From contig NC_014150.1 of NCBI RefSeq assembly GCF_000092845.1, forward strand, positions 1,054,001 to 1,118,000: a DNA stretch of 64,000 bases, read 5' to 3'. The notes beneath the pieces are model-generated. The model had not been told where the DNA came from. It did no database searches and saw nothing but the letters and a program-made list of their open reading frames with translations. The position numbers were made by a program, and so were the translations under genes. Below are positions 22,267 to 46,748 of the stretch, piece after piece (positions within the stretch are counted from its first letter, which is position 1; the number at the start of each line of letters is the position of its first letter). This DNA is from Brachyspira murdochii DSM 12563. Its GTDB lineage: Bacteria > Spirochaetota > Brachyspiria > Brachyspirales > Brachyspiraceae.

Positions 22267-24669
22267 TTAATTATTTAAACTAACAGGGATAGAAACAAAA
22301 AAAGTTGTTATTTTGAAAGAATCATTAACACTTTTTAATACCATACTTCCCCCATGAGCTTCAACTATTCTCTTAGATATAGCAAGACCTATACCTACAC
22401 CATGACTTTTTGTGGTAAAAAACGGAGTAAATATCTTCTCTGCCAAATCCGGTTCTATATATGAATCTGTATTTTCAACTATTATATCTATCATAGATTC
22501 CCTATATGCATTATCATCAAATATAACACTGATAAATGAACATTCTTTATTATTATCTTCTATAGCATCTATGGCATTGATGATAAGATTAAATACAACC
22601 TCATTCATTCTGTCATAATCCCATCTTACAGCATCTTCTTTTGTCATTTTTAAAGCATAGAATTTGATATTTTTACCGCTTTTTTTAATGTATTCTTTTG
22701 AAAGAATAGTTAAATATTTTATCATGTCATCAATTTTTATATTATCAACTTCCAAATTAATACTTTTAGCAAATGACAAATTTCTTCTAATATAATTTTC
22801 CAAATTTTCTACTTCATTAGCAATTATCTGGGCATAATTTTTAATAGTTTCATCTTTGCTCACCTTTACAAGTCTATTTGCAAACCCAGCAATAGGAACT
22901 ATAAAATTTCTTAAATTATGTGCCATAGAAGAACTCATCTCTCCTATTATAGCCAAACTCTTTAAATCAAGTAATGTTTTCTCTGCTGCTTTAAGAGCAT
23001 TATTATTTTTTTCCATTTCATTATAAAGAGAAGAATATTCCAAAGCAACAGCCGCCTGCCTTCCAAACATTTTTAAATAATCAAGATCATCTTCAGGTAT
23101 AGGCTTTCCATTATAAGGATTATCAACAACTATCATACCTATACAATTAACAGAGTTCATTATTGGTATAATAGCAAAAGGATAATCTCCAAATATATTG
23201 GTATATTTTTTTATTTGATTTACTTCATCATTATTTTCTACATTGAGTACATTAATACTATTTTTATTATTAAATACATCAAAAAACAGTCTGCAGTTTT
23301 CATTATTAGGTATAACAGTGTTTAAAAACTGCTGATTTAAATCCCATGCATCTTCAACACTTCTTTTATCAAAAGAAAGCATTAATTTTTCTCTTAAAGC
23401 ATATTTATTCAAATTCTGCATATTGCTCCATATCATTCCCGCATCCTGAGCATTTTTTGGGGCTACACACATACGTCCTCTAAATACATTAAACTCTTTA
23501 TCGTAAAGAAAAGCAAAAGCCCTATTAAAAGCAAATACATCTCCTATAGTTGTAATAGTTAGAAGCAAAAACAAGATATCTTCGGTTTTAGAACGCTCTA
23601 ATAAAATATTGCTTATATCATATAATGTGTTTAAACGAGACATATGCTTTGTATTTTTTTCATTTGCTTTACTTAATTCTATCATATTGTAATGTTCTGA
23701 GATTCTGCTTGATATATTTGCTAAAAGAGGATTAAATAAGTTAAGATCATTAATATCAAAATCGCCAAGAGGATTAACAGCATCCGGAATCTTATCTATA
23801 ACAACAATATAGCCTATACAGCCTTTTTTTACTGGTATTCTATTAAAAAGAACTGATCTGTTTATTATACCTTCAAATTTCTTATAATATTTATTATTGG
23901 CAGCATTATTTATAAAAAAGATATTATTATCCCAATATTCTTCTATATAAGAATTATCTTCAAAAATAGAATAGTCAAAATTTTCAGGAAATCCGTAACT
24001 TGACCTTAAATACAAATTATTATCTTCATCTCTAAGCCTAATAAAAGCCTTACTCGCTGTAAAAATATTAGCAATATCCGAAGCCAAATTATTAAGATTA
24101 TTTTCAAAATCATCTACATCGCTTAATTTTAAATAAAGCTCTCTAAGAAGTTTTAACTGCTTATCTCTTTCTTTGTATGTTACACTTTGAAGTACATTAT
24201 TAGCATAAACAGCAAAATGACCTATAACATTTTTTATCTCATCAACTATTTCTCTATAAAATTCAATTCTATTTTCTTTATTTCTAAATACAACAACACC
24301 TATAGGGTGAGCGTAGAAAAATATTGGAAGTACAAAAATTGATGCATAATTAGAAAATACTTCTATATTTGTATGATTAATATTTCCGCCTATAAAAATT
24401 TTTTGTTCATACAATACATCTTTACAATGACTAGCCTCTATAGGAAAATCCACTTTACATACATAGTATCTGTCTATACCATATACTCCTCTTAATATAA
24501 GATAATCTCCTTTAGGAAAATAAACCTCTCCGCAGTCAAATCCGTAATACTGACAAGTTTTCTCCAAAAACAAATCAACAACTCTGTCTATCTCATTGGT
24601 ATTCTCGGCAAAAAGAAGCCCCATAGATAAATCTGAAAAAAAACTGTCTATCGATTTTCTATCTTCCAT
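22267..24669 (-). CDS. GAF-domain sensor histidine kinase
   Basis: 800 residues with no membrane segment, so a cytoplasmic sensor. Three GAF-like regions occupy roughly 10-160, 180-330 and 350-555. The phospho-acceptor is His584 in MAHNLRNFIVPIAGF. The kinase domain has the N-box (FNLIINAIDAIED, Asn694/Asn698) and an intact G2 box (GVGIGLAISKRIVEAHGG). The G1 region reads IIVENTDSYIEPD rather than the usual DxGxG, a variant seen in some GAF kinases. FTPFFTTK (F box) is present. A partner receiver is not adjacent; possible partners in the window are the REC-PilZ-like protein and the REC-LpxC protein, without evidence for either. Confidence 0.92.
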   Translation of the reverse strand: MEDRKSIDSFFSDLSMGLLFAENTNEIDRVVDLFLEKTCQYYGFDCGEVYFPKGDYLILRGVYGIDRYYVCKVDFPIEASHCKDVLYEQKIFIGGNINHTNIEVFSNYASIFVLPIFFYAHPIGVVVFRNKENRIEFYREIVDEIKNVIGHFAVYANNVLQSVTYKERDKQLKLLRELYLKLSDVDDFENNLNNLASDIANIFTASKAFIRLRDEDNNLYLRSSYGFPENFDYSIFEDNSYIEEYWDNNIFFINNAANNKYYKKFEGIINRSVLFNRIPVKKGCIGYIVVIDKIPDAVNPLGDFDINDLNLFNPLLANISSRISEHYNMIELSKANEKNTKHMSRLNTLYDISNILLERSKTEDILFLLLTITTIGDVFAFNRAFAFLYDKEFNVFRGRMCVAPKNAQDAGMIWSNMQNLNKYALREKLMLSFDKRSVEDAWDLNQQFLNTVIPNNENCRLFFDVFNNKNSINVLNVENNDEVNQIKKYTNIFGDYPFAIIPIMNSVNCIGMIVVDNPYNGKPIPEDDLDYLKMFGRQAAVALEYSSLYNEMEKNNNALKAAEKTLLDLKSLAIIGEMSSSMAHNLRNFIVPIAGFANRLVKVSKDETIKNYAQIIANEVENLENYIRRNLSFAKSINLEVDNIKIDDMIKYLTILSKEYIKKSGKNIKFYALKMTKEDAVRWDYDRMNEVVFNLIINAIDAIEDNNKECSFISVIFDDNAYRESMIDIIVENTDSYIEPDLAEKIFTPFFTTKSHGVGIGLAISKRIVEAHGGSMVLKSVNDSFKITTFFVSIPVSLNN

Positions 24670-24718
24670 AAAACAAACGCCTTATATAATTTTTAATCCT
24701 ACAATTGTTAATTATTTT

Positions 24719-42900: not shown

Positions 42901-43153
42901 TTTAATATTCCTTAAAATAATATATTAACTGCTATATTGTATATTTATATATAAAAAAAACAATATTTTTTAACTGATAATTTATAATTTTATTAACTAT
43001 TTGTTTAATATAAGGTTATAATAAATATAAGGATAATAATATTTGTACAAAATTGTATATAATTGACGATAATCTTACTATTGATTTTATATAATTATTA
43101 TAATATATTTATAATATAAAAATTTGCAACACAATTATGGAAGATTTTTTAAT

Positions 43154-44446
43154 ATGCAGACAATAAAAACAAAACAAAATATATTAATAATAGATGATGA
43201 AGAAGACATACTTACAACATGTCAAACTATTTTAGAAGATGAAGGCTATGATGTAGAGATAGCAAAAAATAATAACGAAGCTGAAAAAATACTAGAAAGT
43301 AAAAATATTAATTTGGTATTTTTAGATGTATGGCTTCCTAATGTAGATGGGCTTGATATTTTATCACATATAAAAGAAAAATATCCTTCTACAGTTGTTA
43401 TTATGATGAGCGGACATGCCGGAGTAGAAACAGCCGTAAGAGCTACAAAAATGGGAGCTTATGACTTTTTAGAAAAGCCTATAAGCATATCTAAATTACT
43501 TTCAAGCTGCGATGAAGTTTTTAAAGATCATGTTAATAATAATATAGAAATAGAAAATACAAATAATGAACATACAAATAAAAAAACTGAATGCAAATAT
43601 AAAATACATCAAAGAACAATAGCTAAAAGTGTAGTTGTGAGCGGTTTTGCTCTAATGGAAGGAAGAAAAACTGCATTAACGCTTGTACCTGCAGAAGCTA
43701 ATACTGGAATAGTTTTTATAGATATTAATACAAATACTCATATAAAATTATCCCCTGAAAATATTTTATCAAAAGATAAGTCCGGAGCCGTTAATTCCAC
43801 TGCTTTGGTATCTGGAAACAGATATATAAAAACTACAGAACATTTTTTAGCAGCACTTCATATGATGGGCATTACCAATTTAATAGTAAAATGCGACGGA
43901 GAAGTTCCTAATGTAGATGGTTCGGCTTTGGTATTCTGCGATGCTTTAAAAGAGGCTGGTTTTGTTGAACAAGATGATTATGCAGATCCTATAGTTATAG
44001 ATAGTACTTTAACTTACGGAAATGTTAATGATGATGAAACTTACATTATACTATCACCTTATGACGGACTTGAAGTAACTTTGCGTATAGATTTTGCGGG
44101 TTCTATAGGCGTTCAGAAATACACTTATAAATTTGAAAACTTTGATCAGTTTACAGAAGAAATAGGTAAAGCTAGATCATTTAATACTATAGATAATATA
44201 GACTATGCTCAGAAAATGGGTATGGCTGGAAGCGGTATGATAGGAAGCCATATATTATTATGCGACGGTAAGGTTATAAATACAAAACTTCATTTTGATA
44301 ATGAGTTTGTAAGGCATAAAATTTTGGATATAATTGGAGATTTATATATTTTATCAAGACCAATAAAAGCTAAAATAACTGCAAATAAATCCTCACATTC
44401 TTTTAACCATTCTGTTGTGCATGATTTGGCAAATAGATATTTATAA
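43154..44446 (+). CDS. lpxC: response regulator receiver fused to LpxC (UDP-3-O-acyl-GlcNAc deacetylase)
   Basis: 430 residues in two domains. Residues 8-125 are a complete phospho-receiver: acidic pair Asp14/Asp15, phosphosite Asp58 (LVFLDVWLPNVDG), Ser86 (MMSGHAG) and Lys108 (FLEKP). After an Asn/Glu/Thr-rich linker (about 128-150), residues 152-430 are LpxC, which deacetylates UDP-3-O-acyl-GlcNAc in the committed step of lipid A synthesis. Catalytic Glu229 and zinc ligands His230, His388 and Asp392 are present, with His415 (KSSHSF) in the usual KSGH position; spacings match the family. The ATG at 43154 follows GGAAG; a TTG at 43124 is less likely. A sigma factor gene follows after 74 bases. 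The fusion suggests phosphorylation-controlled lipid A synthesis. Confidence 0.93.
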   Translation: MQTIKTKQNILIIDDEEDILTTCQTILEDEGYDVEIAKNNNEAEKILESKNINLVFLDVWLPNVDGLDILSHIKEKYPSTVVIMMSGHAGVETAVRATKMGAYDFLEKPISISKLLSSCDEVFKDHVNNNIEIENTNNEHTNKKTECKYKIHQRTIAKSVVVSGFALMEGRKTALTLVPAEANTGIVFIDINTNTHIKLSPENILSKDKSGAVNSTALVSGNRYIKTTEHFLAALHMMGITNLIVKCDGEVPNVDGSALVFCDALKEAGFVEQDDYADPIVIDSTLTYGNVNDDETYIILSPYDGLEVTLRIDFAGSIGVQKYTYKFENFDQFTEEIGKARSFNTIDNIDYAQKMGMAGSGMIGSHILLCDGKVINTKLHFDNEFVRHKILDIIGDLYILSRPIKAKITANKSSHSFNHSVVHDLANRYL

Positions 44447-45506: not shown

Positions 45507-46748
45507 TTGCAAGATAAAGAACTATTAAATATACTTGATATCTTTATAAAAGAAAAAAATCAAATAATAGAAAAAATAAAAAAAGAAAGAAAAAAATTAA
45601 TACCTAAAATAAATATTATAGAATACTCTATGTATCCTGAAATATTAAGAAATAAATTATTATATGATATTTTGAAAGTAAATTTTGTAATTGATAATAG
45701 CAACAAAGAAATTAACTTTGCAAGAGATTTTGCTGATTATATTATAAAAGATATGCTTAACTTTAATAATATCAATACTGATAAAGATATAAATATTGAA
45801 GCGGACATTATTGAAGATAATATAAAAATTGAGATGAGTATATATAATAATGATTTTAAAATCATTATAGAAAGCAAAATAAATATTTTTGACTTAAAAA
45901 AACAATTAAAAAATTATTCAAATGATAATTTATTTATTGTTATATTAAGTAAGAATGATTATGAATCAAACATATTGGACAATAAATTAAAAAATTATAA
46001 TAATGTATGCTGCTTATCAAATAGTGATATTGCCTACTTTATTGATAATAATATCATCAATAAATATGGATTCTTAAAAGATGATAAATATTCATCAATT
46101 TATTCAGCATTAATTCAAATTAGAAATAATGAAATAAATATAAGCAGTAAAAAAGAGGAATATAATATGGAAAAAAGTATAATAGAAGAGTTCTTAAACA
46201 ATAATGAAGTTTATAAATCATTAAACACAATGAAAGATATAGAAGAATGTTCAAAACTATTTTTAGAGGCAAGCAGCATAATAAAATCCCAAAAAATAGA
46301 GATAAATCCTATAAAAAATCAAATAGAAATTATTAAAAATATTATAAAATATTTAAAAAGCCATGGACTTAGCAATGATAACTGCAGATATTTAGATGAA
46401 AAAATATTCAAAGAAAACATTAAAAACAGTAATACGGCAGCCTCAACTCCTATAATTATTTATTTGAATAAACAGCTTTTAATAAAATTATTCATTAATA
46501 TACATTACTGCCATGTGAGCATATTTTCAAACAGCAATGATATAATAGATAAACTAAATCAAAAAGAAGTCAAAGATGAAATAAAAAACATATTTTCCCC
46601 TTTTGAATTATTTGAAGGAAAAAATGATCCAGACCCATTAGATTATTTGTATGTTTATTATTTTTATATAAATAAAGATGATAAACCTGAAGAAATAGCA
46701 AATATTATAATAAAAATATACAACTATTTAAAAAAACAAGATTTCTAA
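45507..46748 (+). CDS. PD-(D/E)xK nuclease-like protein of unknown role
   Basis: 413 residues, Asn/Lys/Ile-rich, without signal or membrane segments. Residues 98-138 read IEADII...IKIEMSIYNNDFKIIIESKINIFDLKKQLKNY: the IIIESKI (Glu122-x-Lys124) followed by a QL-xY helix is the core of the PDDEXK_4 nuclease-like family. The preceding acidic position is Glu109 rather than Asp, so activity is uncertain. I choose the TTG at 45507, because GGAGG at 45497-45501 is correctly spaced. The gene ends 6 bases before hemW, so the two are likely co-transcribed. Confidence 0.6.
   Translation: MQDKELLNILDIFIKEKNQIIEKIKKERKKLIPKINIIEYSMYPEILRNKLLYDILKVNFVIDNSNKEINFARDFADYIIKDMLNFNNINTDKDINIEADIIEDNIKIEMSIYNNDFKIIIESKINIFDLKKQLKNYSNDNLFIVILSKNDYESNILDNKLKNYNNVCCLSNSDIAYFIDNNIINKYGFLKDDKYSSIYSALIQIRNNEINISSKKEEYNMEKSIIEEFLNNNEVYKSLNTMKDIEECSKLFLEASSIIKSQKIEINPIKNQIEIIKNIIKYLKSHGLSNDNCRYLDEKIFKENIKNSNTAASTPIIIYLNKQLLIKLFINIHYCHVSIFSNSNDIIDKLNQKEVKDEIKNIFSPFELFEGKNDPDPLDYLYVYYFYINKDDKPEEIANIIIKIYNYLKKQDF

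Follow-up and report, generated by a model that had tools for sequence, protein, structure and literature searches.

The 64,000-nucleotide stretch of Brachyspira murdochii DNA analysed here (the window) encodes one protein in which a receiver domain of the NtrX type precedes a complete LpxC, the committed enzyme of lipid A synthesis. We consider it rather probable that we are dealing with an NtrX-type response regulator in which LpxC has taken the place of the DNA-binding output; the kinase NtrY would then act directly on the committed enzyme. The wider proposal, which we hold to be evenly balanced, is that of a shortened two-component pathway, where the NtrX receiver would switch LpxC and a membrane kinase would set lipid A flux in place of control through gene expression or proteolysis. 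The features on which this reading relies are the following.

43154..44446 (+): REC-LpxC fusion gene, 430 codons plus stop (open frame, Pfam, NCBIfam)
43139..43143 (+): GGAAG, possible ribosome-binding site 10 bases 5' of the ATG (read from the sequence)
43181..43504 (+): receiver domain of the NtrX type, residues 10-117 (Pfam PF00072, NCBIfam NtrX, receiver tree)
43325..43327 (+): codon of Asp58, predicted phosphorylation site (invariant in 17 sequences, kept in all fused families)
43520..43603 (+): variable hydrophilic linker, residues 123-150 (identity drop)
43604..44431 (+): LpxC domain, residues 151-426 (Pfam PF03331, 3.9e-69; PDB LpxC matches; E. coli alignment)
43838..43843 (+): Glu229-His230 codons, LpxC active site (invariant, E. 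coli LpxC included)
44315..44398 (+): stretch with the His388, Lys389, Asp392 and His415 codons, LpxC active site (invariant, E. coli LpxC included)

One reading frame joins a receiver to LpxC

The host genome is a single contig of 3.24 Mb; of the relatives with a name that were found, B. innocens and Brachyspira sp. G79 are the closest. Translation of 43154-44446 on the forward strand yields a single 430-aa protein with no internal stop, in agreement with the coordinates and frame given in a preliminary description of this DNA. That description had also proposed that a complete receiver and a complete LpxC lie in one chain. Indeed, both Pfam matches are far over cut-off (Response_reg, residues 10-117, 2.8e-30; LpxC, residues 153-426, 3.9e-69), and NCBIfam and the invariant residues reported below lead to the same conclusion. 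Residues 125 to 150 had been singled out as the place where a stop or a frameshift might separate two genes; neither is present there in 17 aligned sequences. In the other fused genomes the frame is open over 427-458 aa, the exceptions being due to assembly limits, namely a gene cut at a contig edge (G147) and one with two Ns at the linker (G044).

The linker sequence is not conserved: in the Brachyspiraceae alignment its identity ranges from 8 to 92%, versus 72-99% for the receiver, and its dN/dS ratios are unreliable because of the alignment. In the window gene the linker contains no in-frame ATG, GTG or TTG. Separate production of LpxC from an internal start was considered and rejected, since the first start codons, at 162 and 168, already lie inside LpxC; a GTG or TTG close to the receiver end occurs in a few relatives of the gene. 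In the predicted full-chain structure (mean pLDDT 61.9) the receiver is good, whereas the LpxC half and the interface are poor because the alignment is shallow. Foldseek searches with this model did find LpxC, but with an rmsd near 10. The model holds no reliable REC/LpxC interface, and no domain contacts are concluded from it.

The LpxC half is complete and has no second copy

The window protein scores 196.2 bits against the NCBIfam lpxC equivalog TIGR00325 (cut-off 187.25 bits), and its match to PF03331 spans positions 1-267 of 268 with 233.6 bits. Glu229, His230, His388, Lys389, Asp392 and His415 are invariant in the 17 Brachyspiraceae sequences and align with the E. coli LpxC residues which we take to be catalytic, i.e., Glu78, His79, His238, Lys239, Asp242 and His265. 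The LpxC site read earlier from the sequence (Glu229, His230, His388, Asp392 and His415) is thereby confirmed. On the other hand, the alignment indicates that the C-terminal tail of E. coli LpxC is missing from the fusion. No FabZ match was obtained in the window protein, the LpxC-FabZ model reaching 169 bits versus a cut-off of 465.

Elsewhere in the genome no second LpxC was found. Being the only LpxC, the fusion must perform the LpxC step if the pathway works, which suggests that its deacetylase is functional. As for the later steps, one LpxL-type protein only is recorded in a Brachyspira species (PMC3087551).

The receiver is of the NtrX type and is conserved

Asp14, Asp15, Asp58, Ser86, Phe105 and Lys108 are invariant in the 17 Brachyspiraceae sequences, and the complete phospho-receiver recognised earlier from Asp14/Asp15, Asp58, Ser86 and Lys108 is therefore borne out. 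The phospho-receiver residues are also invariant across the distant fused families. In Brachyspira the dN/dS ratios are 0.06-0.14 for the receiver versus 0.04-0.07 for LpxC; by this measure purifying selection acts on the receiver almost as strongly as on LpxC.

Several comparisons place this receiver with NtrX. The top NCBIfam receiver match of the window protein is NtrX. A comparison with the whole set of receivers from the fetched loci ranks NtrX receivers first among the unfused relatives of its receiver, the leading ones at about 44-52% identity; the genome's own NtrC-like receiver comes behind them, with 39%. A tree that also included receivers of the NtrC, PhoB and CheY types has a branch with 97/88 support, on one side of which stand the fused receivers together with those of NtrX. 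Within it the fused receivers form two supported groups, both on the NtrX side; this tree, built on a shorter sequence, does not settle whether they had a single origin or multiple ones. The AAA+ and DNA-binding output of NtrX is not present, its place being taken by LpxC. Judging from these comparisons, the window protein is not an NtrX; only its receiver descends from one.

Distribution and age of the fusion

The preliminary description had suggested an architecture search for REC plus LpxC. For the spirochaetes we carried it out on 393 Spirochaetota genomes, 110 of which have LpxC, and found the fusion in 35 of these 110: all sampled Brachyspirales plus families f12, f22 and f27. In 34 of them LpxC belongs to a frame of the length characteristic of the fusion (427-458 aa; that of G147 is cut by the contig edge), namely in 26 genomes of Brachyspira, 3 genomes of sister genera, 2 members of the sister family f2, one genome of f12 (G011) and two of f22 (G024 and G035). 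An N-terminal receiver is present in all of the fused loci fetched, and absent from the other long LpxC frames that were fetched (L039, L051, L060, L061 and L067). The 35th fusion, in G044 (f27), has an intact receiver frame directly 5' of LpxC, with two assembly Ns between them. A search of 72,556 plasmid records yielded none that covers REC and LpxC together. A GTDB scan was made with window-derived patterns, which reach near relatives only. Among the papers searched, we found no description of a REC-LpxC fusion and none containing both "LpxC" and "REC domain".

In the careful LpxC tree (a quick tree was also made), all 13 fused rows, G044 included, fall on one side of a 100/99 branch; the tree is unrooted, and receiver loss elsewhere is formally possible. 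Since the fused LpxC sequences form one clade across several families, the fusion is old and one origin likely. A single fusion event followed by vertical descent is the simplest reading.

NtrY is kept in fused genomes in which NtrX is not found

Besides CheA, we found two paired and three unpaired histidine kinases in the genome. The paired ones are an NtrB/AtoS-like kinase adjoining an NtrC-like regulator (L070) and a PhoR-like kinase adjoining a PhoB-like regulator (L071). The genome also has stand-alone receivers (L085 and L088). The unpaired kinases are:

G000:C1:2197719-2199506 (outside the window): NtrY (L073), membrane HAMP histidine kinase
G000:C1:1305719-1306111: NUDIX-kinase (L072), preceded by a gene for a small HATPase protein, conserved across Brachyspirales
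Window, about 22267-24680 (-): GAF-domain histidine kinase (L077), soluble, about 800 aa, conserved across Brachyspirales

No NCBIfam NtrY name was obtained for L073, whose top match is a Leptospira kinase family below cut-off. We named it NtrY because of its signature motif (WREAAIKVAHEIKNPLMPI), its orthologues and the gene order beside NtrX: in Spirochaetota with a stand-alone LpxC (G004, G013, G014, G028 and G040) the L073 relatives are directly followed by NtrX, either full-length or contig-cut. A profile of 14 such kinases, those of fused genomes included, was searched over the phylum, and the positions of its matches were compared with those of NtrX. Among the roughly 150 best matches listed, NtrX directly follows NtrY in 38 of 42 genomes with stand-alone LpxC, in 65 of 74 genomes without LpxC, and in 0 of 34 fused genomes. 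The four exceptions with stand-alone LpxC comprise two contig edges (G012 and G080), a kinase gene with stops (G037) and an NtrX on another contig (G168). As for the nine exceptions without LpxC, four have an NtrX-type receiver downstream (G193, G207, G305 and G316), one is cut by a contig edge (G201), two have a true orphan NtrY (G036 and G335), and G061 and G114 are the rest.

In the fused genomes no NtrX orthologue was found, the top NtrX-like protein scoring no better than an NtrC-like paralogue. In this genome NtrY is encoded at another place in the chromosome than the fusion, without an adjoining NtrX. Genomes with stand-alone LpxC that lack NtrX (families f17, f36, f40 and f46) lack NtrY as well, in contrast to the fused genomes, which keep it; the exceptions to this rule are G002, with an NtrY homologue devoid of the conserved histidine, and G052, with an NtrY that has no NtrX beside it. 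The homologue of G002 (L163, family f4) lacks the AHEIKNP motif with the phospho-accepting His, and its genome has no NtrX orthologue. The pattern of NtrY kept and NtrX gone had predictive value: G044 at first appeared to combine a stand-alone LpxC with an orphan NtrY, but the receiver came to light when the frame upstream was read, which exposed a fusion hidden by an assembly gap.

A search for the cognate kinase by co-occurrence, as proposed in the preliminary description, points to NtrY, the only one of the three unpaired kinases present in every fused lineage. The GAF-kinase and the NUDIX-kinase were both rejected as cognates, for outside Brachyspirales neither tracks the fusion, being missing or weakly matched in f12, f22 and f27. 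An adjoining kinase was likewise considered, and none was found next to the fusion in the inspected families outside Brachyspiraceae. The NtrX descent of the receiver and the orphan NtrY as its likely kinase go beyond what had been described before.

Two observations concern the surroundings of NtrY. Right after the orphan NtrY, and convergent with it, lies a pseudo-receiver of about 118-138 aa (L073:1844-2200, minus strand; also L098, L099, L101 and L102), which occurs in Brachyspira and a sister genus and keeps the acidic cluster with an Asn at the position expected for the phospho-Asp; it might modulate NtrY. Furthermore, the gene before the orphan NtrY in G011, G024 and G044 (L114, L116 and L161) resembles, by eye, phosphatidylserine decarboxylase (psd), a possible second link to envelope lipids.

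Genes downstream of the fusion

A sigma-factor gene had been noted 74 bases downstream of the fusion, and its start position agrees with our analysis. As a functional partner, the sigma factor was rejected: the conserved adjacency does not extend beyond Brachyspira and one sister genus. In another Brachyspira genome (G034) the two genes abut or overlap (L063:8886-8889; the sigma start was chosen mechanically), which suggests co-transcription there. Downstream of the sigma gene, the window contains a 413-aa ORF with no Pfam match (45507-46748, plus strand). In some relatives its identity is about 52-54%, as against 95-97% for the sigma factor; in others it was not found at the same place.

Comparison with known systems

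Response regulators with enzyme outputs include the CheB methylesterase and the GGDEF/EAL proteins, whose outputs are mostly signalling enzymes. As in the fusion, their receiver is N-terminal to the enzyme; the output of the fusion, in contrast, is the committed enzyme of a pathway of envelope biosynthesis. LpxC-FabZ (NCBIfam NF009667) is also a natural LpxC fusion, but it joins two enzymes with no signalling domain, and the window protein matches its LpxC part only. The LpxC proteins of E. coli and P. aeruginosa share the catalytic residues and the domain with the fusion, yet are single-domain proteins without the N-terminal receiver. Enteric LpxC is subject to FtsH-dependent proteolysis (PMC12444477).

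A close counterpart is the NtrY-NtrX system of Alphaproteobacteria and of most NtrY-bearing Spirochaetota sampled, which resembles the fusion in receiver clade, kinase type and link to lpxC or LPS. NtrX of that system is, however, a transcription factor with AAA+ and DNA-binding parts, whereas here the output is LpxC. In R. sphaeroides, loss of NtrYX raises the lpxC transcript 8.8-fold and LPS about 2-fold; no NtrX site was found at lpxC, and the control is apparently indirect (PMC7240162). In Caulobacter NtrYX inhibits lpxC transcription, according to a 2025 review (PMC12444477). The known control of lpxC by this system is exerted at the transcript level, while in the fusion the link would be physical, at the protein. 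The same metabolic step is the target of two-component transcriptional control by DVU2934 in Desulfovibrio vulgaris (PMC3333781) and by ChvGI in Caulobacter (PMC12444477); both act on gene expression, whereas the fusion would act on the protein.

Proposed mechanism and alternatives

In the pathway that we propose, NtrY would sense an envelope signal and set the phosphorylation of Asp58 in REC-LpxC, its most likely target. The phosphorylated receiver would then change the LpxC half directly, through its activity, oligomeric state or substrate access, and the outcome would be fast control of lipid A flux. The permanent REC-LpxC fusion, together with an NtrY that lacks its usual partner, suggests that the envelope signal acts on the enzyme and not via gene expression. 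Both the phosphotransfer from NtrY and the change of LpxC activity are what we infer from sequence comparison. Direct phospho-control of LpxC is, in our opinion, a well-supported hypothesis because the fusion is the only LpxC, the receiver site is invariant and selected, the fusion is ancient and the orphan kinase matches it. That phosphorylation restrains LpxC has little better than even odds; the slight lean to inhibition derives by analogy from the Alphaproteobacteria, in which NtrYX lowers lpxC expression. If the fusion had a single origin, the independent events are few and the co-occurrence with NtrY is suggestive only. Counting against the pairing are the facts that NtrY and the fusion are not neighbours, NtrY not being next to REC-LpxC in any genome inspected, and that NtrY is also unpaired in two genomes without LpxC (G036 and G335).

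Alternatively, NtrY could phosphorylate the receiver with an effect on the location or lifetime of LpxC, by recruitment to the membrane kinase or by protease turnover, and not on catalysis. The proteolytic control of enteric LpxC (PMC12444477) is a precedent, the absence of the E. coli C-terminal tail makes another turnover handle conceivable, and a flexible, variable linker fits a tether. We consider this reading unlikely, although nothing separates it from direct control; no degron or targeting element was found. That the receiver obtains its phosphate chiefly from another kinase or from acetyl phosphate, with NtrY serving a different, e.g., stand-alone, receiver, seems to us distinctly improbable: the genome does offer the unpaired kinases L072 and L077 and the stand-alone receivers L085 and L088, but kinases of these two types are missing or weakly matched in f12, f22 and f27, where NtrY is present, and the receiver is of the NtrX type.

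It is very improbable that the receiver has lost signalling and persists as a passenger, either structural or inherited, that stabilises LpxC. In principle, the need for LpxC could hold such a fusion in place; against this stand the phospho-receiver residues, unchanged across distant fused families, the purifying selection on the receiver, close to that on LpxC, and the retention of NtrY by every fused lineage. Finally, the joining of two genes through an assembly or annotation error is hardly credible and largely refuted: the only interrupted frame, that of G044, is broken at two ambiguous bases, whereas independent assemblies, single-contig genomes among them, keep the frame open, and in the window gene the linker is free of in-frame start codons. 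Direct control of LpxC by its receiver, with NtrY as the kinase, is the reading that we favour.

Implications

LpxC is the point at which lipid A synthesis is controlled, as well as a drug target, and its own control is known chiefly from a few Proteobacteria. With a receiver fixed on the sole LpxC of an order of gut spirochaetes and with a named candidate kinase, direct phospho-control becomes testable with purified proteins. By its domains the protein counts both as an LpxC and as a response regulator, the latter with a receiver of NtrX descent, a committed enzyme of biosynthesis for its output and a predicted kinase. In evolutionary terms this is a clear case of rewiring, in which the link between NtrYX and lpxC, which in other bacteria runs through gene expression, seems here to have become a physical fusion.
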